The position numbers and the translations under genes are program-made. From Prolixibacteraceae bacterium (GTDB taxonomy: Bacteria; Bacteroidota; Bacteroidia; Bacteroidales; Prolixibacteraceae): DNA of 64,000 nucleotides. Shown here piece after piece: positions 1,429 through 56,767 of the stretch; within the stretch, counting starts at the first letter, position 1, and every line of letters begins with the position of its first letter. The DNA is taken from contig JAIOZY010000006.1 of NCBI GenBank assembly GCA_021740385.1, positions 62,001 through 126,000 of the forward strand. Reading direction: 5' to 3'. The notes beneath the pieces are model-generated. The model worked only from the letters and a program-made list of their open reading frames with translations, was not told where the DNA came from and did not search any database.

Positions 1429-2371
<943 letters not shown>

Positions 2372-2452
2372 TTGTTAATGAATTATTAAAATCACGGATG
2401 AAACAAACCTCAAAAAAAGGGGAGTATCAGCGACAAATAAAAATATAAAATA

Positions 2453-2517
2453 ATAAAACGATCCCGCTTATGCGGGCGGGTTACACGAGTTACATTAATC
2501 AATAAATATTTTAGCAA
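2453..2517 (+). repeat. Palindromic leader element, copy 2 (short form)
   Basis: The element starts ATAAAACGATCCCGC, one base different from the other copies, folds as CCCGC-TTAT-GCGGG, and is followed by a GTTACACGAGTTAC segment that resembles the GAGTTCCAT tail of copies 3 and 4. It ends at the start codon of the GH10 gene at 2518. The second palindrome of copies 1 and 5 is absent. Confidence 0.55.
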
Positions 2518-3651
2518 ATGAAAAGAAAAAGAGTTTTGTCGGGAGCGACATTGATTATAACAGTTAGCATCGCACTGTTTTTTATGGGTTGTGAAAAACC
2601 TGCAACGCTCAAAGATGCTTATAAAGGAAAGTTTTATATCGGAACGGCACTGAATACCCCTCAGATAATGGGTAAGGATACGGCTGCAATTGAAGTTGTA
2701 AAAGAACATTTTAATTCCATTGTTGCCGAAAATTGTATGAAAAGCGGGCCAATCCAACCCCGCGAAGGGGAGTTCAATTTTTCGATGGCCGACAAATTTG
2801 TTGAATTCGGGCAGCAAAACAACATGCACATTGTTGGCCATACGCTCATTTGGCATTCACAGGCCCCGCGTTGGTTTTTTACCGATGATGATGGAAAAGA
2901 AGTTTCGCCGGAAGTACTGATAGAGCGTATGAAAAAACATATTTACACCGTTGTGGGCCGCTACAAAGGAAAGGTGCATGGATGGGATGTGGTTAACGAA
3001 GCCATACTCGACAATGGGAATTACCGCAACAGCAGGTTTTACAGAATACTGGGTGAAGATTTTATTAAATATGCTTTCCAGTTTGCCCACGAAGCCGACC
3101 CCGAAGCCGAATTGTATTACAACGATTATTCCATGTCGAAGCCCGGCAAAAGAAACGGGGTTGTTGCCATGGTGAAAAAGCTGCAACAGCAAGGTGTTAA
3201 AATCGATGGCATTGGCATGCAGTGCCACGTTGGACTCGATTATCCCGAATTGGAAGAATTTGAGGCAAGCATGGAGGCTTATGGCGGTTTGGGCGTTAAG
3301 GTTATGATTACCGAAATGGACATTAGCGTGTTGCCAACTCCTGATTGGAACCGGGGTGCCGATATTTCGACAAACATCGATTACCAGGCAAAATATAACC
3401 CTTACACCAAAGGCTTGCCCGATTCGGTAAATACGCAACTTGAAGACAGGTACCTTGAGTTTTTCCGGTTATTTCTTAAACACGATTATGTTTCGAGGGT
3501 AACGGTTTGGGGCGTGAACGACGGCTATTCGTGGAAAAATGGTTTTCCCGTGCGTGGCAGAACCGATTATCCGTTGTTGTTCGACCGTAACAACCAGCCA
3601 AAATCAGTAGTGCCGCTATTAATTAACGAAGCAATAAAAAAACGTAAATAA
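2518..3651 (+). CDS. GH10 endo-beta-1,4-xylanase, lipoprotein
   Basis: The product is 377 aa. The N-terminus is a lipoprotein signal with a Cys after FFMG (FFMGCEK), so the enzyme is probably anchored in an outer or periplasmic membrane face. A single GH10 barrel follows: the acid/base Glu161 in WDVVNEA and the nucleophile Glu266 in ITEMDIS, with the usual HTLIWHSQ and WGVNDGYSW motifs. GH10 enzymes cut the beta-1,4-xylan backbone and tolerate side chains. It has no extra binding module, unlike the second GH10 gene at 27886. The 146-bp spacer before it carries a palindromic element. The family assignment is very secure. Confidence 0.96.
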   Translation: MKRKRVLSGATLIITVSIALFFMGCEKPATLKDAYKGKFYIGTALNTPQIMGKDTAAIEVVKEHFNSIVAENCMKSGPIQPREGEFNFSMADKFVEFGQQNNMHIVGHTLIWHSQAPRWFFTDDDGKEVSPEVLIERMKKHIYTVVGRYKGKVHGWDVVNEAILDNGNYRNSRFYRILGEDFIKYAFQFAHEADPEAELYYNDYSMSKPGKRNGVVAMVKKLQQQGVKIDGIGMQCHVGLDYPELEEFEASMEAYGGLGVKVMITEMDISVLPTPDWNRGADISTNIDYQAKYNPYTKGLPDSVNTQLEDRYLEFFRLFLKHDYVSRVTVWGVNDGYSWKNGFPVRGRTDYPLLFDRNNQPKSVVPLLINEAIKKRK

Positions 3652-3673
3652 AAAGTAATGTAGACAATTGTTT

Positions 3674-3740
3674 ATGAAACGAGCCCCGAATTGTCGGGGC
3701 GAGTTCCATACGATCCCTTTAAAATAAACAATTTAATCGT
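3674..3740 (+). repeat. Palindromic leader element, copy 3
   Basis: The element starts ATGAAACGAG, has the stem GCCCCGA-ATTG-TCGGGGC, continues CGAGTTCCATACGATCCC, and ends with an A/T tail at the start codon of the regulator gene at 3741. The tail (TTTAAAATAAACAATTTAAT) resembles that of copy 1. It lies downstream of the GH10 stop codon at 3651. Confidence 0.65.
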
Positions 3741-6700
3741 ATGAAACACATTTTCACATGGGCAATTTTATTTTTAATTGTTTGTTACGCAACGCCGTCT
3801 GATGCAAACAACCGTGAACCGAATCACAGGTTTCATAACATAAACAAGTTATACGGCATTTCCATGCGGCAGGCATCCTCGGTTTGTAAAGATCACAACA
3901 ATTTTGCCTGGGTGTCTACAAAACTGGGGATATTGCGGCTTACAAGCGATAATAGCCATGTGTATCAATTGCCTTACGAATCGCCGAATGTACACAACAT
4001 TGAACTGATTTATACCGACAGTGTGCTTTGGGCCATTTCGAACAATGGTCAGTTATTTAAATACGATCAGGTTCTGGATAAATTTTTGCTTGAATATAAT
4101 CTGGATAAAAATTTAAACAACAGGCATCTAAGTGTATATTCCACCATTTTTCAGAATAGCGACACGTGTTGGCTCGCTACCTCCGACGGGCTTTTTTTGT
4201 ACAGCAGCAATTCAAAAAATGCAAAAAAAGTAATTAGCGAAGCAGTTATATCGCTCGAATGGTACAGCCAAGATCAGTTTTTTGCTGTTTTGCTGAATGA
4301 AATTTCACTTTTCGATGTTGTATTACATAAAAAAGAAATTCTTTACAGCGGCTTGCTGAATGATTATTATTTTACGTGTTCCTTACATTTCGACAAAAAC
4401 CGGAACAGGCTTTGGCTGGGGTCGAACTTTCAAGGCTTATTTTACTTCGATTTTGCCCAAAAAAAGTTGTATGCATTTAAACCCGATTGCTTTCCCTGCC
4501 AGCCGGTAATGGATATTGAGGAGATTGATTCTGAAACGCTTTTGGTTGGAATTGACGGTCAGGGGATATGGAGCATTAACCAGGATTTACTCAGCATTGG
4601 CAAAATATACAAAGACGACGTCGATAACCCCGATGCCTTACGCGGTAACGGGGTATACGATATTTTTCACGATAAGAAAAAAGGCTTTGTTTGGGTGTGT
4701 ACTTTTTCCGGTGGCGTATCGTACTTTTATCTCGGCACATCAAGTAGTGAACATATTATCCATCATACAAACCAGGAAAATTCACTGGCAGACAATAATG
4801 TAAATTATATTTTGGAAGACAGCAGGAAGAACCTGTGGTTTGCTACTGACAATGGTATAAGTGTTAGAAAAGCCAACGGGCAGGAATGGTCACACTTTTA
4901 TACCAACAATCAGAAGCAGGCACAGGTTTTTTTAACCCTTTACGAAGACCGGAAGGGACAAATTTGGGCCGGTTCATATTCGTCGGGGGTATACGTGATT
5001 GATGCCGAAAGCGGAAAACAAACGGCACATTATTCACAAAGCGAACCCAATACCCCCTTTAAATGCAATTTTGTTTTTAGTATTTACGGCGATTCGTATG
5101 GCGATATATGGATCTGCGGAATAAACAGCGAGGTAGTACGTTACATGCCCGATAAAGATCGGTTCCGGAAATATTTTTTTCAACCCGCCACCAATATTGT
5201 GCAATACAACGATTCGTTAATGTTACTGGCATGTTCGTATGGTTTGGTGCAGTTGAATAAAAATAGCGGTGTTTATTCTACATTGGTCGGGGATAATATT
5301 GTTAGTGATATTTTGGTTATCGGTGACAAAATTTGGTTTGGCACTGGTGGCAATGGCCTGCTATGTTTTCACCCCGATTCGAATAAAGTAAGGCAATTTA
5401 CTACCGAAAACGGATTGCTTTCAAACCATGTGAACAGTATCTATTTTTCCGATAATCAATTGTGGCTGGGTACCGAAAACGGTTTATGCAGTTTTTCGCC
5501 CAAAACTGAAAAAGTCAAAACCTACTCCGGCCTTTTTTCCTTGTTGTCGTTGTCGTTTAATACCAATGCTCACTGCCGGCTGCACGACGGACGGCTGGCA
5601 ATGGGGACAAACAACGGGGCTGTATTATTTAATCCTTCCGAAATGAGCGAGCGAAATTGGGTGGGTCGTATCTTTTTCCAGGATTTGAGAATTGCTGACC
5701 GTTCAATTCGGAACATCCCATCATTCAACCTCGACAAACCGGTTGATATGCTCGAAAACCTGGAAATCAGATACCGGCAGAATTCATTTAAGCTTGAAGT
5801 GTTATCGTTGGGAGGTGTGTCAAAAGCAAAGTTTTCGTGGAAACTTGAAGGGCTTAACAATGAATGGACAAAACCCTCTGAACACAAGCTTATCAGTTAC
5901 AATAACATTCCTTTTGGGAAATATATGTTGAGGGTCAGAATGTACGACAGTGCGTTGGCACAAATCATCGACGAGCGCACGTTGACGGTAAAAGTTGCCA
6001 ACCCGTTTTGGGCCCAATGGTGGTTTTTCGCGTTAATGTTTTTCATGATTTCGCTAATAATTTATTCGGTTTTCTGGTATTTGCTAAACCGGATACGGCA
6101 TTATCAAACCGAGGAAAAAATCAGGTTTTTTACAAATACCGCCCACGAGATACGTACATCGTTAACGCTTATTAAAGCTCCCGTTGAAGAGCTGAAAAAC
6201 GAAAGCAACATTTCGGAAAGCGGAAAACACTTTTTAAGTTTAGCAAACGAACAAGCGAGGCATTTAAACAATGTGGTCAATCAATTGATGGATTTCCATA
6301 AAATCGATGTAGGTAAAGAAAAATTTAAGCCGGAGATGGTAAATCTGCCATCGTTAATTTTATGCCGGGTCGAGATGTATGAGTCTCTTGCAGCAATGAA
6401 AAACATTGAGTTTAAAAATAATTTTGCCACAAAACAGTACGAAACGGCTGTTGATGAAATCCAAATGGAGAAAGTTGTTGACAACCTCATTTCCAATGCT
6501 ATAAAATATTCCAATAACAATTCTGTCATCAAAATTGATTTTGAAGGAAACGATACGCATTGGACACTAAAGGTGAGCGACCAAGGCATAGGTATACCTA
6601 AGCGGGACATGAAACGTTTGTTTAAAGAATTTTACCGGGCCCAAAATGCCATAAACTCGAAAATAGTTGGTTCCGGGGTTGGGCTTTTGCTGGTTAATAA

Positions 6701-25887: not shown

Positions 25888-26442
25888 ATGAGAATAACAA
25901 ACATATTTATAGCATGCATTGTGACTTTGACTTATAATGCTGATGCAAAGCTTTCATCGTTAGCAGAACCCGGTCACTGGAACGACCCCGATATGCTTGA
26001 AGTTGGCAGCAAGTCACTCAACCCTACAGAGTGCAAAGCTCATTTCTCCATTTGGTGCATGCTTGCAGCTCCTTTGATTACAGGCAATGATCTGACTAAA
26101 ATGAATAAAGCGATAAGGGATATTCTAACTGCTCATGAGTTAATTGCAATCAGTCAGGATCAGTTTGGAAAAAAATGCACACGTGTGAATAACGAAAATG
26201 GGTTACAGGTATGGCAGAAACCTTTAAACGATGGCTTGGTTGAAAAAAATTCGACGATTAATGCCAAAACGCTCTCCCAAACCCATACTGATCCACGGGC
26301 AAAAACCGGATTGATGATCAGAGAAACTGAAAATCCGGCCAGTTTATTTGTATTGATATGTACTACACCTGCTAAAGGTGTTTCATTGCAATGGCGTGAT
26401 GGTTTTGAAAATACCTGCAATAAAAACAACTATGGAAAGTGA
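25888..26442 (+). pseudogene. Remnant of a GH27 alpha-galactosidase with a ConA-like domain
   Basis: The 184-codon frame starts with a signal-like segment (MRITNIFIACIVTLTYNADA) joined directly to the GH27 late-barrel motif GHWNDPDMLEVG (acid/base region, Asp33-Asp35), then FSIWCMLAAPLITGNDL and AISQDQFGK. The first two thirds of the barrel, including the nucleophile strand, are missing. At about residue 115 the GH27 C-terminus (LQVWQKPLNDG) breaks off and joins AKTGLMIRETENPASLFVL, a motif of DUF1349/ConA-like carbohydrate-binding domains, also truncated. Two in-frame deletions in a larger GH27 gene explain this. It cannot be an active alpha-galactosidase. Confidence 0.8.
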
Positions 26443-27885: not shown

Positions 27886-30213
27886 ATGAGAACGATTAAA
27901 CAGGTAGCACTATTCTTCACATTTTTTTTGATAACAAATGTATTTGTTTTAATCCCCCTGGAAACAGGGGCACAGTCGTACCGAAACTGGTATAACAATG
28001 CCCAGGAACGCATCGATACCTTAAGAAAAGGAACATTTGGTATAAAAGTAGTTGACAAAAACGGCCAGCCTTTTTCCGGGGAAGTGTCCGTAAATATTGC
28101 CAAACATGCGTTTCCCTTTGGGATTGCTTTCGATTTTTACGAGGGGGAGTTTAGTATGGGAAACAGTTACAGTACGGGCAGCTCAATCCAGGCCCCTGCC
28201 GACAATGAAATATATCAAACCGAAAGATGGAACGATTATCTGGCCTATTCAATACCAATTGAAAGCGGAAAAGAGTATAAACTTACATTGAAATTTGCCG
28301 AAATTTATGCCGATGCCGGCAATTTTAGGTTGTTTGATGTAAAAGTTGAAGGCGAATTATTTCTGGATGATTACGATGTTTTTACAGAAGCCGGTGGAAA
28401 AAATATCGCGAAGGATACAAGCATCACATTTGTTGCAACCGATAATGTTCTTAATATCGAATTGAAGGCAGAAAAGGATAATGCCATGATTAAAGGAATT
28501 GTGTTGGAAGAAATAACCAGCTCGACGATTATCCGGATCAATTGCGGGGGGGCTGCGCTCACTACGGAAGATGGTAATACTTATGTGACGGAAGAGGGCT
28601 ATTTCGATCCCGATGCAAATACCGTTGCAACCGAAGAACAGTGGAAGAAGGCTGCCATGTACAAATATTTCAATTACGGTGCCTGTGGCAACTCGTTTAA
28701 GTGGAGCGGCATTCAGCCCCAGCCTACAGCCCCCGACTATACCAATTTTGAAAATGCGGTACGCTGGACCCAAAAAGTAGGATGGGAATTACGGGCACAT
28801 ACCTTGCTGTGGGGGGGTGAAGATGATCATTCCATGCCCGGCTGGGTGCGGAATTTGCCAACGCCCAGGGCCATAACCGATACCTGTAAAATGCGGGTTA
28901 TCCGCGAAGTTACACGCTATAAGGGGATCATTAAAGAATACGATGTTATTAACGAACCCTTGACAGGCCATGCCGACCATTTACGGAATACGGTTGGGGA
29001 TTCCATTCTATGGAATTGCTTTAAGTGGGCACGCTCGGCCGATCCCGACGCCGAACTTTATATTAACGATTATAATGTAGAGTACAATTGGGGACAGGCC
29101 CTGGAGTACCGCGACCTGATCCTTCAAATTAAGGAGATGGGAGGCCCCGTTACCGGGGTGGGTATTCAGGCCCATTTTTGGGATGGTTTACGGCCCAATG
29201 TCAACGAAGTTGTTAGAAATTTGAATATTATTGCCGAAGCAGGTTTGCCCATGCGTTTAACCGAATTCGATTGGGGAAGCGACTTGACCCAGAAACAACA
29301 GGTTGAAGACTTTGTAAAAGTGGCCACCATTGCCTTTTCTCATCCTTCTGTTAATGGTATGATATGCTGGGCTTTGTGCGATAATGGCGCCTGGCGGGAT
29401 AATTCAGGTTTTTTCGATGCCAACTATAAACCAAAATTAGCTGCCGACACGCTTTTGTATTATACCAAAACGAAATGGGCAACAAATTTCGATTCGGTAA
29501 TGGCCGGCGGCAATGAAATTGTTTTTGATGCTTATTACGGCGATTATACCATTGAAGCCGATTTTGATGGCGTTACAAAAGTGTTTACCGTCCCTTTTTT
29601 AGAAGAAAATGAAGATTCTGTTTTCACTTTATTCGAAGCCGATGCAGTAGTTAAAGGACCGCAATTTGTAAAAGCCGAACTGCATGAAAGCAATGCTGTG
29701 AAAATTACATTCGATAAAGAGATTGAAAGTGGTTCCTTAACAAGAAGCGATTTTAAATTCTTTTCAAACAACGAAATTGGGCTTGAAGCCGTACAGAAAG
29801 ATGACAGCAACCCCAAAGCTGTTATTTTATCGCTAAGTGCAAATGTTAATACTAACGGGTACGCTTCCGTATCGTATTTTCCCGGAACCCTGAAAGCGAC
29901 CGATGGCAGTATTGCCGTTGCGTTTGGCCCCGAAAAGGTTGTTTTTCCCGTTTCAAATGATGAGTCGGGTTCCTTAGTGGCCAATGGGATAAAGCTTTAT
30001 CCGAATCCGGCAACCAGTCACCTTACCATTGTTAATAAAAACGGACCGTTTAAAATGAAAATGTACGACAGTACGGGACGGCAGGTTTATGGTGAAAATT
30101 CGCAGGGCAATAAACTGTTCTTTGATGTAAGTTCTTTCCGAAGGGGGATATACTTAATTGGAATTTCCTGTACTGACAATCAGGTTTACATGCAAAAAAT
30201 CCTTTTGAAATAA
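27886..30213 (+). CDS. GH10 xylanase interrupted by a permuted malectin-type domain, T9SS-secreted
   Basis: The product is 775 aa. After a signal peptide and a GH10 lead-in (FGIKVVDKNGQPFSG, HAFPFGIAFDF) the barrel is interrupted at ~85-248 by a malectin/CBM57-type domain, then resumes with EEQWKKAAMYKYFNYG. Catalytic residues are Glu357 in DVINEPL and Glu460 in LTEFDWGS. Inside the insert the usual last part (IYQTERWND ... LKFAEIY ... LFDVKVEG) comes first and the usual first strand (RINCGGAALTTEDGNTY) comes last. A beta domain of the SwmB/Ig type follows (~590-685), then a T9SS sorting domain (LYPNPATSHL, GIYLIGISC). It probably acts on cell-surface or released xylan. Its leader is repeat copy B. 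Confidence 0.94.
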   Translation: MRTIKQVALFFTFFLITNVFVLIPLETGAQSYRNWYNNAQERIDTLRKGTFGIKVVDKNGQPFSGEVSVNIAKHAFPFGIAFDFYEGEFSMGNSYSTGSSIQAPADNEIYQTERWNDYLAYSIPIESGKEYKLTLKFAEIYADAGNFRLFDVKVEGELFLDDYDVFTEAGGKNIAKDTSITFVATDNVLNIELKAEKDNAMIKGIVLEEITSSTIIRINCGGAALTTEDGNTYVTEEGYFDPDANTVATEEQWKKAAMYKYFNYGACGNSFKWSGIQPQPTAPDYTNFENAVRWTQKVGWELRAHTLLWGGEDDHSMPGWVRNLPTPRAITDTCKMRVIREVTRYKGIIKEYDVINEPLTGHADHLRNTVGDSILWNCFKWARSADPDAELYINDYNVEYNWGQALEYRDLILQIKEMGGPVTGVGIQAHFWDGLRPNVNEVVRNLNIIAEAGLPMRLTEFDWGSDLTQKQQVEDFVKVATIAFSHPSVNGMICWALCDNGAWRDNSGFFDANYKPKLAADTLLYYTKTKWATNFDSVMAGGNEIVFDAYYGDYTIEADFDGVTKVFTVPFLEENEDSVFTLFEADAVVKGPQFVKAELHESNAVKITFDKEIESGSLTRSDFKFFSNNEIGLEAVQKDDSNPKAVILSLSANVNTNGYASVSYFPGTLKATDGSIAVAFGPEKVVFPVSNDESGSLVANGIKLYPNPATSHLTIVNKNGPFKMKMYDSTGRQVYGENSQGNKLFFDVSSFRRGIYLIGISCTDNQVYMQKILLK

Positions 30214-52960: not shown

Positions 52961-55900
52961 ATGAAAATCAATATAGTAGGAGTCGTTTTTCCGATTCTTT
53001 TAACGTTGGGGATAATTGCTTCAGCGGCAGGTACAACAAATGATAAGCAGGCAATATATTTAAACACTTCTTATTTATTTGAAGAAAGGGCAGCCGACTT
53101 GGTTTCCCGTATGACACTGGAAGAAAAACAAAGTTTGCTGGGCAATACCATGGCTCCGGTACCCCGCCTTGGCATTAATAAATATGATGTTTGGGGCGAA
53201 GCCCTGCATGGGATAATGGGGCGGAACAACAACAGTGGCATGACGGCCACCTCCTTTCCCAACAGCATTGCCGTAGGCTGCACGTGGGACCCGGATCTCA
53301 TTGAGTGGGAAACCTCGGTCATTGCCGATGAAGCACGCGGTTTTAACCACGATCTTATTTTTACCCTCACATATTGGTCGCCGGTTGTTGAGCCGGCAAG
53401 GGATCCGCGCTGGGGGCGAACGGCCGAATCATTTGCCGAAGACCCGTTCCTGGTATCCAAAATTGCCGGTGGTTTTATTCGGGGTTTAATGGATGATGAT
53501 CCGAGATACCTGAAAGCAGTACCTTGTGGTAAACATTATATCGCAAACAATACGGAGTTTAACCGCCACACAGGCAGTTCCGATATGGATAGCCGCGATA
53601 TGCGCGAATTTTACCTGGCACCTTATAAAGAATTGATCGAAAAAGATAACCTGCCCTCCATTATGACAGCCTACAACGCGGTTAACGGTGTGCCGGTTTC
53701 GGCCAGTGAATTCCTTGTTGATACAATAGCCCGAAGGACCTACGGGATGAAAGGTTATGTTACGGGCGACTGCGGCGCCATATCGGATATGGTACGCGGG
53801 CATAAATATGTAAAAGACGGAGCTGAAGCCACAGCCCTGGGCCTTAAAGCCGGCGTTGATACCGATTGTGGCGGCGAATACCAAAACAATGCCATTGATG
53901 CGCTTAAACGTGGGTTGATTACCGAAACGGATATCGACCGCGCATTGATAAACATGCTGGCCATAAGGATGAGGCTGGGGGAATTCGATCCTCCCGAAAT
54001 GGTGCCTTACAGCGGAATTAAGCCCAATGTTATCAACGATCCGTCGCATCACAGTCTTGCACTTGAAGTAGCCACAAAAACCCCCGTACTTTTAAAGAAC
54101 GACGAAGTTGCTGCTAACGGAGAAAAAGCATTACCCCTTCAGGCCTGTAACATACAACAAATAGCTGTTCTGGGTCCCCAGGCCAACAAAGTTGAACTGG
54201 GCGATTACTCGGGACCGGTTGAAAACCGTTACAAAATAACCCCATTGCAAGGGATCATCGATTTTATTCAGCAAAAAAACCTAAAAATTGATGTTGTGCA
54301 CGGTGAAGGCGGTAACACGGCACGGAAAACCGATTTTTATTCACTCACCGGTTTTTCCCTCATTAGCAACCGGGGCGAATTAAAGGAATTTGATGCCACT
54401 GAATATAATGAATCGGCAAGCGGCATTATTGCTGCCGAGCGTTTTGGCCGCCGCAACTTACGCGGGATTAAAGATGGCGACTGGACGGCTTACCACAATA
54501 TCGATGTTACAAACATCGATTCGCTGATTTTCAATATTAACGTGATTTTAAGCGGCGGATCAATCGAAGTAAGGGTTGGCTCGGCTACCGGAAATGTTAT
54601 CGCATCCAGTAAGGTAGTGAGCAAAGGCAGGGGAGGCTTCTTCGGAAACAGGGTAACCATTCCGGTTAAGGTAAATACGCTGGGAATTGCCGGCCCGCAG
54701 GACCTTTACTTTGTGTTTCGTGAGCCACAACCCGAATCAACCAGCCAGGAAACACTCGACTTGGCTGCTTCGGCCGATGTGGCAATCGTTTTTGTGGGTA
54801 CCGACCAAAGTACCGGAAGGGAAGAGTCGGACAGGTTTTCGCTTGCATTGCCCGGAAACCAGCTCAACCTGATTAAATCAGTAGCTGCCGTGAACCCCAA
54901 TACAATTGTGGTTATCCAGGCAATGGGAATGGTTGAAGTTGAGGGGTTTAAGAATGACCCGCATGTTCCCGGCATTATTTTTACCGGCTACAACGGACAG
55001 GCCCAGGGCGCTGCAATGGCCAAAATTCTCTTTGGCGAAGTGAATCCCGGTGGAAAAACCAGTGTGACCTGGTATAAGTCGGTAAACGATTTGCCCGATT
55101 TTAACGATTATAACCTGCGTGCCGGTGATGGAAAAAGGGGAAGGACTTACTGGTATTTCGACGATGATGTTTCGTATGAATTTGGTTATGGATTATCGTA
55201 CACCACATTTGAATACAGTAATTTCAGCATCAGTAAAAGCAGCATTACACCAAACGAAAAAGTAACGGTAAGTGTTGATGTTCAAAACACAGGCGATGTC
55301 GATGGCGATGAAATTGTACAGGTATACGTCAGGACGCCCGATAGCCCTGTCGGATTACAACGCCCGTTTAAACGACTAAAAGGATTTAAACGGGTAACCA
55401 TTCCGGCCGGCCAGGTCAAAACCGTATCAATCGATGTCGATTGTTCCGACCTTTGGTTTTGGGACGACAAAAACAGCCGGTTAACATTCGATCAGGGTAA
55501 ATATGTTTTCGAAATTGGTGCTTCTTCAAAAGATATAAAAGGAACGGTTGAAGCCACCATGAAAGGGCAGTTTAATGCCAAATTGAAAACCGTTGTGGCC
55601 GAGGCTGATGAAATAGTGCTGAAACCGGGAGATAAAACGCGAACCCGTGTTACTGCATGTCTTACCGATGACCGGTTTATCGATATAGCTCAAGCCCGGG
55701 TTGTATATAAAAGCAACAACCCATTGGTGGTAAGTGTTGATGCAAACGGCGAAATTGTAGCACACCAGTCAGGCGTGGCATCTGTTTTCGCGTATGTTAC
55801 CTACGATGGGGTAACCGTGTCGGACGGTTTCCCGCTAAAGGTTATGCCCAACCTTACCCCCGCTGCAATTAAGGTAAACGGCAAAGCAATAAAAGGTTTC

Positions 55901-56767
55901 AGCCCCGACACAAAAGCATACAGTTACCTTGTAAAAGGTAATGCCAAAATTCCCGAAGTTTCTGCTAACGCGGTAAGCAACAATGTTGAGGTTGAAATAA
56001 CACAGGTTAGCAGTATTCCCGGTACGGCAGTTGTTAATATTGTCGATTACAATACCATCGAAAAGAACACCTATTACATCAATTTTGATGTTGCTGCTGT
56101 TGGCGATGAATTCAATAACGGGCAAGCCGGAAGCCAATGGGAATGGATAAGGGAAAACCGGGGCAATTACAGCTTCACATCTGTTCCCGGTGCACTGACC
56201 ATTACAAGCGAAAAAGGCGATGTTTCCGAAGGAAGCAACAATGCCCGCAACCTGTTGTTGCAAAGCGCCAACAACGATTGGGTCATTGAAACACAACTGG
56301 CTTGCTCGCGTACCCCTTCGCAACCCGAAAATGCCGGTATTATTGCTTGTCAGGACGATAACAATTTTGTTAAACTGATGTTCAGGGCCGTTACAAAAAC
56401 AACGAGGCAAAGAGGTGTACAGCCCGGAACAATCGACTTGCTTGTTGAAGAAAATGATATTGCCAAATCGATCGCTTCTGTTAACCTCGAAAAGGAGATA
56501 ACCGGCGAAAACCACCTGCTTTTGAAGCTTGTCAAAAAGGGCAGTACATATACTGCTTTTTATTCAGTGAACGGAAAAGATTTTGAAAAGCTTGGCGCGT
56601 CGGATCTGTTGTTGAAAGATATTAAAGCCGGGTTAATTGCCTGCGACGGGGTTATTACACAGAGCATGACCAGCACATACTGGTTCGATTCGGATACAAC
56701 AAAGCCCGATACGCCCTTTGATGTGTCTTTCGATTATTTCCATATTAAAAGCAGTGGTTTAAAATAA
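52961..56767 (+). CDS. Multi-domain GH3 beta-xylosidase-like enzyme
   Basis: The product is 1268 aa. The GH3 N-terminal barrel carries the nucleophile Asp270 in VTGDCGAISDM and the substrate motifs GKHYIANN and FHTG-like NRHTGSS. The alpha/beta sandwich is interrupted at ~470-595 by a CBM6-like domain (ASGIIAAERFG, GSIEVRVGSATG, DLYFVFRE), then resumes with DVAIVFVGTDQSTGREESDR. A fibronectin-like domain (~755-865) is followed by a Big_2-like domain (~876-963), a cadherin-like stretch (~965-1045) and a ConA-like domain (~1048-1268) like that at the end of beta-xylosidases. It probably trims xylose from oligosaccharides, but beta-glucosidase or arabinosidase activity is possible. Confidence 0.93.
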   Translation: MKINIVGVVFPILLTLGIIASAAGTTNDKQAIYLNTSYLFEERAADLVSRMTLEEKQSLLGNTMAPVPRLGINKYDVWGEALHGIMGRNNNSGMTATSFPNSIAVGCTWDPDLIEWETSVIADEARGFNHDLIFTLTYWSPVVEPARDPRWGRTAESFAEDPFLVSKIAGGFIRGLMDDDPRYLKAVPCGKHYIANNTEFNRHTGSSDMDSRDMREFYLAPYKELIEKDNLPSIMTAYNAVNGVPVSASEFLVDTIARRTYGMKGYVTGDCGAISDMVRGHKYVKDGAEATALGLKAGVDTDCGGEYQNNAIDALKRGLITETDIDRALINMLAIRMRLGEFDPPEMVPYSGIKPNVINDPSHHSLALEVATKTPVLLKNDEVAANGEKALPLQACNIQQIAVLGPQANKVELGDYSGPVENRYKITPLQGIIDFIQQKNLKIDVVHGEGGNTARKTDFYSLTGFSLISNRGELKEFDATEYNESASGIIAAERFGRRNLRGIKDGDWTAYHNIDVTNIDSLIFNINVILSGGSIEVRVGSATGNVIASSKVVSKGRGGFFGNRVTIPVKVNTLGIAGPQDLYFVFREPQPESTSQETLDLAASADVAIVFVGTDQSTGREESDRFSLALPGNQLNLIKSVAAVNPNTIVVIQAMGMVEVEGFKNDPHVPGIIFTGYNGQAQGAAMAKILFGEVNPGGKTSVTWYKSVNDLPDFNDYNLRAGDGKRGRTYWYFDDDVSYEFGYGLSYTTFEYSNFSISKSSITPNEKVTVSVDVQNTGDVDGDEIVQVYVRTPDSPVGLQRPFKRLKGFKRVTIPAGQVKTVSIDVDCSDLWFWDDKNSRLTFDQGKYVFEIGASSKDIKGTVEATMKGQFNAKLKTVVAEADEIVLKPGDKTRTRVTACLTDDRFIDIAQARVVYKSNNPLVVSVDANGEIVAHQSGVASVFAYVTYDGVTVSDGFPLKVMPNLTPAAIKVNGKAIKGFSPDTKAYSYLVKGNAKIPEVSANAVSNNVEVEITQVSSIPGTAVVNIVDYNTIEKNTYYINFDVAAVGDEFNNGQAGSQWEWIRENRGNYSFTSVPGALTITSEKGDVSEGSNNARNLLLQSANNDWVIETQLACSRTPSQPENAGIIACQDDNNFVKLMFRAVTKTTRQRGVQPGTIDLLVEENDIAKSIASVNLEKEITGENHLLLKLVKKGSTYTAFYSVNGKDFEKLGASDLLLKDIKAGLIACDGVITQSMTSTYWFDSDTTKPDTPFDVSFDYFHIKSSGLK

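Follow-up and report, generated by a model that had tools for sequence, protein, structure and literature searches.

Does the barrel of a bacterial xylanase contain a malectin domain whose first strand has moved to its end, and if so, how is it built and what might it do there? We addressed this question in a 64,000-nucleotide stretch of DNA from a Prolixibacteraceae bacterium (GenBank assembly GCA_021740385.1, contig JAIOZY010000006.1, positions 62,001 to 126,000 of the forward strand), called the window below. An open reading frame (ORF) at 27886-30213 on the + strand, as are all features of this gene, encodes a GH10 xylanase of 775 residues. A first reading of the letters alone (the original prediction) had placed a circularly permuted malectin-type domain inside the GH10 barrel at 28138-28640. 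The motifs on which it relied are present in frame and in the order given: IYQTERW (residues 109-115), LKFAEIY, FDVKVEG, AGGKN, and MIKGIVLEE (residues 201-209). The RINCGG motif follows the last of these strands at residues 217-222 (28534-28551), with GYF at residues 238-240.

Strand order within the insert

We compared the protein with malectin profiles to determine which parts of the domain are present and in what order. The Pfam Malectin profile (PF11721, CBM57) matches residues 93-203 at profile positions 39-161 with an E value of 1.7e-29 and a score of 103.4 bits, against a curated cut-off of 23. The 51-residue stretch containing RINCGG, taken alone, matches positions 2-26 of the same profile with 13.6 bits and an E value of 0.067, calculated against all 24,736 Pfam models. 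A hidden Markov model (HMM) was also made from 13 canonical malectins and run on the whole 775-residue protein. It gave two matches. The first covers model positions 21-141 at residues 86-206 (28141-28503; E = 5e-33) and corresponds to the malectin core. The second covers positions 1-51 at residues 216-265 (E = 1.6e-7) and is well aligned at about positions 1-25, corresponding to a displaced N-terminal segment at residues 216-240 (28531-28605; IRINCGGAALTTEDGNTYVTEEGYF). Between the canonical last strand and the strand that canonically opens the domain lies a short link of 9 residues (207-215; 28504-28530). The two pieces, positions 21-141 and 1-25, are complementary and single-copy, with nearly no overlap or loss. 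All canonical malectin segments are found once, and because the N-terminal segment comes after the last strand, we class the domain as a permuted variant and not as an ordinary member of PF11721. Profile searches score such a domain as truncated, and annotation therefore misses its first strand.

When the end of the insert was joined to its start, which restores the canonical order, Pfam Malectin gave one continuous match to positions 2-162 at 116 bits. Doubling the insert sequence gave a contiguous match to positions 2-161 that spans the junction, as is typical of a permuted domain. Solved malectins (PDB 2jwp, 2k46, and 9ikp) align to a profile of the insert in swapped order, their N-strand piece being weak by itself. 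In 2jwp, the N-terminal VNAGG segment (chain residues 6-25; weak alone) aligns to insert positions 131-150, and the core (chain residues 51-139) aligns to positions 21-109. The same swap is seen with 9hhu, a solved plant kinase ectodomain, where NCGG (chain 402-424) aligns to insert positions 135-157 and the core lies at chain 461-562. Judged by its anatomy alone, the insert at residues 84-246 is thus almost certainly one complete, circularly permuted malectin domain in the β1-α1 loop of the GH10 barrel, as read from these alignments. The original prediction is borne out by sequence, family comparison, re-joining, and the empty insertion site described below. We take the permuted domain to be real rather than a misreading, since no fewer than 21 distinct sequences keep this order and another enzyme family carries a version of its own.

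Insertion site in the barrel

The N-terminal lead and barrel strand β1 (residues 31-83; 27976-28134) end in HAFPFGIAFD and align to residues 39-93 of the solved xylanase 7d88. From β1 to the next part of the barrel, the spacing is 13 residues in 7d88 and 175 in the window's protein. In a GH10 relative, L013, FGVVMD is followed by PETSPGSLS and then at once by the α1 helix (WDRATMYRYYN), with neither the malectin core nor the RINCGG segment. Because the segment is missing from both L013 and 7d88, the insert includes the displaced strand and is placed between β1 and α1. The L013 comparison sets the bounds at about residues 84-246 (28135-28623), or ~160 residues, covering the whole permuted malectin with short joints. 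These bounds agree to within a few residues with those first proposed. The insert is present in 21 GH10s.

After the displaced segment come a joint, the remaining GH10 barrel from α1 onward (matched by Pfam GH10), and the start of a C-terminal β region (together 28606-29565), with a helix and then a strand predicted directly after the insert. The Pfam GH10 match begins at profile position 23 because the first strand of the barrel precedes the insert. The insert also precedes the FKW motif, itself after α1, which sets it apart from Xyn10C-type enzymes with an insertion at β3-α3.

Conservation among GH10 relatives

A search for homologues with the same strand order, which the original prediction had suggested, yielded 21 distinct Bacteroidales GH10s with the permuted insert. 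A pattern scan of one genome per species (84,980 species) found eight complete relatives and one split relative, including Natronoflexus pectinivorans. In the family to which the window belongs, whole-genome searches found the insert in 15 of 140 genomes. Samples from the order and from the phylum gave 5 of 393 and 1 of 395 genomes, respectively, the single phylum-level case being the window's own genome. No GH10 relatives were found in the viral contigs searched. Length hardly varies: measured from the barrel strand to FKW, 20 sequences have 199 residues and the remaining one, L138, has 200. Within the displaced segment, C220, G221, T227, G230, and Y233 are invariant across all 21. When 70 malectin cores were placed on one tree, those of the GH10 inserts grouped as a single clade with support of 99/93.

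In one orthologue (L002, 667-3009, + strand), Ala replaces the acid/base glutamate of GH10 (VINAPL vs VINEPL). This is possibly a catalytically impaired, binding-only form, or else a sequencing error in a metagenome-assembled genome.

A second host enzyme

Permuted malectins were also found in GH2-type, β-galactosidase-like enzymes from four genomes: L061 (2362-2823, - strand), L062 (2651-3112, + strand), L063 (2717-3175, - strand), and two matches in one further genome, one of them L097. In these hosts, the malectin core is followed by a VNCGG segment, and no N-terminal segment stands ahead of the core. The cut lies in the same loop as in GH10, with the core starting from position 24-29 and the N-terminal segment reaching positions 19-21. 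The displaced segment is weak by HMM (2-9 bits), and the pattern NCGG..Y.DK.GL.W is invariant in the three sequences aligned. The domain is apparently inserted after a strand of the C-terminal Rossmann-like domain. Its boundaries are less certain, as no insert-free relative of this host was found in 197 genomes searched.

The GH10 and GH2-type versions share the order of core and then N-terminal segment, a cut at positions of about 21-28, and a nested location; they differ in host enzyme and malectin clade. On the tree, the GH2-type malectins form a clade separate from the GH10 inserts, and a joint clade was not rejected by the approximately unbiased test (p-AU 0.276). Both one and two permutation events are compatible with this result. 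We suggest tentatively that permuted malectins might form a distinct class of nested modules, in which the same loop is opened in GH10 and GH2 and the sugar-binding loops lie beside the working surface of the host. If true, this would put the loops where a canonical malectin insert, held by its usual ends, would not bring them.

Tandem malectin arrays and a probable origin of the permutation

Tandem arrays of canonical malectins, joined by links of 6-15 residues, were found in a viral contig (L064), in Cytophagales, including Hymenobacter and Persicobacter plasmids, and in L039. The 9-residue link of the GH10 insert falls in this range. The permutation may have arisen by out-of-phase excision of one unit from such an array, which would yield precisely this strand order, and we infer this to be the most likely route. 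No array ancestor of the GH10-insert clade was found among the arrays met.

The L064 array (2140-4860, + strand), on a contig from a viral collection, is a single 906-residue protein in which four malectin domains follow one another head to tail, separated by short links. A match there spanning positions 9-157 was rejected as a permuted malectin, as were the Persicobacter and Hymenobacter plasmid matches; all are canonical malectins in tandem, and the junction between units imitates the permuted order. In other genomes, some matches to the insert profile extend beyond position 139; those inspected outside the GH2-type hosts (L035, L038, L039, and L047) are likewise tandem arrays or spurious extensions.

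Predicted structure, putative sugar site, and proposed role

AlphaFold models were made of residues 30-550 and of the insert alone, using 9-11 aligned sequences. The malectin core of the model is usable, with block means of the predicted local distance difference test (pLDDT) of 64-86. Foldseek with the insert model ranked human malectin (9ikp) first, with an E value of 1.2e-6. VIA-align gave a Z score of 10.0 against 9ikp, with a root mean square deviation of 3.3 over 115 aligned residues, and Z scores of 9-11 against other malectin-like domains. The insert core is therefore modeled as a malectin β-sandwich. Superposition on malectin had been put forward in the original prediction: for the core, the fold matches and a different fold is rejected; the moved strand was not placed with confidence. 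Both models join the core-ending strand to the RINCGG strand through a short, hairpin-like turn, at a spot of low confidence. The displaced strand would dock beside the canonical last strand, a placement for which model confidence is low.

Next, we examined the putative sugar site. The sugar contacts of Xenopus malectin are Y67, Y89, Y116, F117, and D186, the last of which is taken to pair with D198 of the window's protein. Across the 21 GH10 sequences, the Y67 position (Y95) has 19 Y and 2 F, the Y89 position (W115) 20 W and 1 Y, the Y116 position (Y141) 15 Y, 4 F, 1 W, and 1 V, and the D186 position (D198) 20 D and 1 G. The F117 position (A142) is variable, with 14 F, 4 H, 2 A, and 1 M. The putative ligand-site positions are otherwise largely kept, being aromatic or acidic in nearly all relatives. 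The permutation joint lies ~10 residues upstream of Y95, and the domain is therefore tethered beside its own binding loops.

These observations can be combined into a model. The displaced N-terminal segment would fold back as the neighbor of the canonical last strand and complete an ordinary malectin sandwich. The new ends, in the loop just before the aromatic residue matching Y67, would lie next to each other where the chain passes from the barrel into the domain and back. As β-to-α loops face the catalytic side, the sugar-binding loops would be held near the substrate cleft, probably at its glycone end. There the insert could act as a rigid binding module or as an extra subsite for xylan, xylan side chains, or associated glucan. 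A sugar-binding role for the insert is probable, while its placement by the substrate cleft has about an even chance of being right. Taken as a whole, the explanation that we favor, a permuted malectin binding domain in the β1-α1 loop with the strand folding back, a cleft-side role, and an origin in a tandem array, appears quite likely to be correct.

Several points weigh against it. The AlphaFold models, which are shallow, reach a mediocre mean pLDDT (58.7 for residues 30-550 and 61.2 for the insert), and the displaced segment has a pLDDT of about 33-64. In L138, the most divergent insert-bearing GH10, the malectin core is retained and the N-terminal segment has decayed (YLKCGNGVTVNGRVY) and is missed by the canonical model. 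At the position of F117, the xylanase of the window carries Ala. Finally, for some malectin-like domains, such as those of plant ANXUR, none of the sugars tested proved to be a ligand (PMC6038381). These last two points also favor the alternative that the permuted malectin folds correctly and serves only as a spacer or stabilizer, or binds a protein partner instead of sugar, as plant malectin-like receptors without the malectin sugar site use the fold otherwise (PMC6038381). Set against the aromatic and acidic positions kept in the relatives, we consider this unlikely.

A second alternative is that the insert is a relic of two degraded tandem malectins, the first without its N-terminal strand and the second reduced to that strand, which would not fold as one malectin. 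Short-link arrays do occur and are also the likely historical route to the permutation. However, two incomplete domains, a possibility raised along with the original prediction, are unsupported because the pieces (21-141 and 1-25) are complementary and single-copy; their length hardly varies in 21 sequences, and five invariant residues in the displaced segment are unlike a relic. We regard this reading as highly improbable. Less probable still is that RINCGG belongs to the normal β1-α1 region of the barrel and the insert is merely an N-terminally truncated malectin: the segment does stand directly ahead of helix α1, but the insert-free L013 has no such segment, 7d88 has just 13 residues there, and the segment matches the malectin N-terminus (E = 1.6e-7), so that this reading, too, raised at the outset, was ruled out by the empty site.

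Comparison with known systems

The permuted insert resembles malectin/CBM57 (PF11721; 2jwp, 2k46, and 9ikp) in that all segments are present in single copy, the core fold is matched, and the ligand-site aromatics are largely kept. It differs in having positions 1-25 after position 141 and in being nested in an enzyme barrel. As the original prediction noted, GH10 enzymes with inserted CBM4-type modules are known: Bacteroidota xylanases of the Xyn10C type, and Pm25, carry CBM4/CBM22 at β3-α3 (PMC7848910). These share with our xylanase a barrel interrupted by a binding module and a xylan-degrading gene cluster. Unlike them, the insert here is a single, permuted malectin at β1-α1.

A natural circular permutation of a carbohydrate-binding β-sandwich has been reported before. 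Montanier et al. reportedly described a permuted pair, CBM36 and CBM60, in 2010 (J Biol Chem 285:31742). The pair belongs to other families and is not malectin. PMC4444583 cites Montanier 2010, a precedent for natural permutation in carbohydrate-binding modules.

No permuted malectin, malectin in GH10, or β1-α1 GH10 insert was found in the open-licence literature searched, in keeping with the original prediction, whose author knew of no permuted malectin insert. The permuted malectin is apparently an undescribed domain variant. Judging from that literature, no natural circular permutation of the malectin fold had been described earlier, and this one occurs as a nested insert. Because it comes with orthologues, a relative that lacks the insert, present-day tandem arrays that are plausible as intermediates, and another host family, it offers a concrete case of domains becoming insertable. 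It also provides a ready test of whether permutation serves to turn a binding face to the active site.

The xylanase and its gene cluster

Pfam GH10 (PF00331) matches residues 249-522 of the xylanase with 158.8 bits and an E value of 2.4e-46. Both catalytic glutamates are present, E357 within VINEP and E460 within LTEFD, which we take to be the acid/base and the nucleophile, respectively. The protein ends in a type IX secretion C-terminal sorting domain (residues 704-775; 29995-30210), with a match to PF18962 at residues 704-772 (E = 2.5e-11) and a TIGR04183 match above its cut-off. The product is predicted to be a secreted GH10 endo-xylanase. Its gene neighbors encode an arabinofuranosidase, several esterases, GH43-CBM6, GH5, GH31, GH2, GH3, and GH127 enzymes, and a SusC/SusD-like pair, consistent with a gene cluster that would act on decorated xylan and on plant polymers related to it.

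The window encodes a second GH10 (2518-3651), for which the GH10 match begins at profile position 2 and no malectin match is seen. The ORF at 25888-26442 (+ strand) matches Melibiase_2 at positions 201-284 only, the C-terminal part of an α-galactosidase catalytic domain, and appears to be what is left of a truncated GH27-type gene. The cluster has another nested binding module: a GH3 enzyme encoded at 52961-56767 (+ strand) has a CBM6 match (residues 496-588) inside its GH3 C-terminal domain (residues 376-747).
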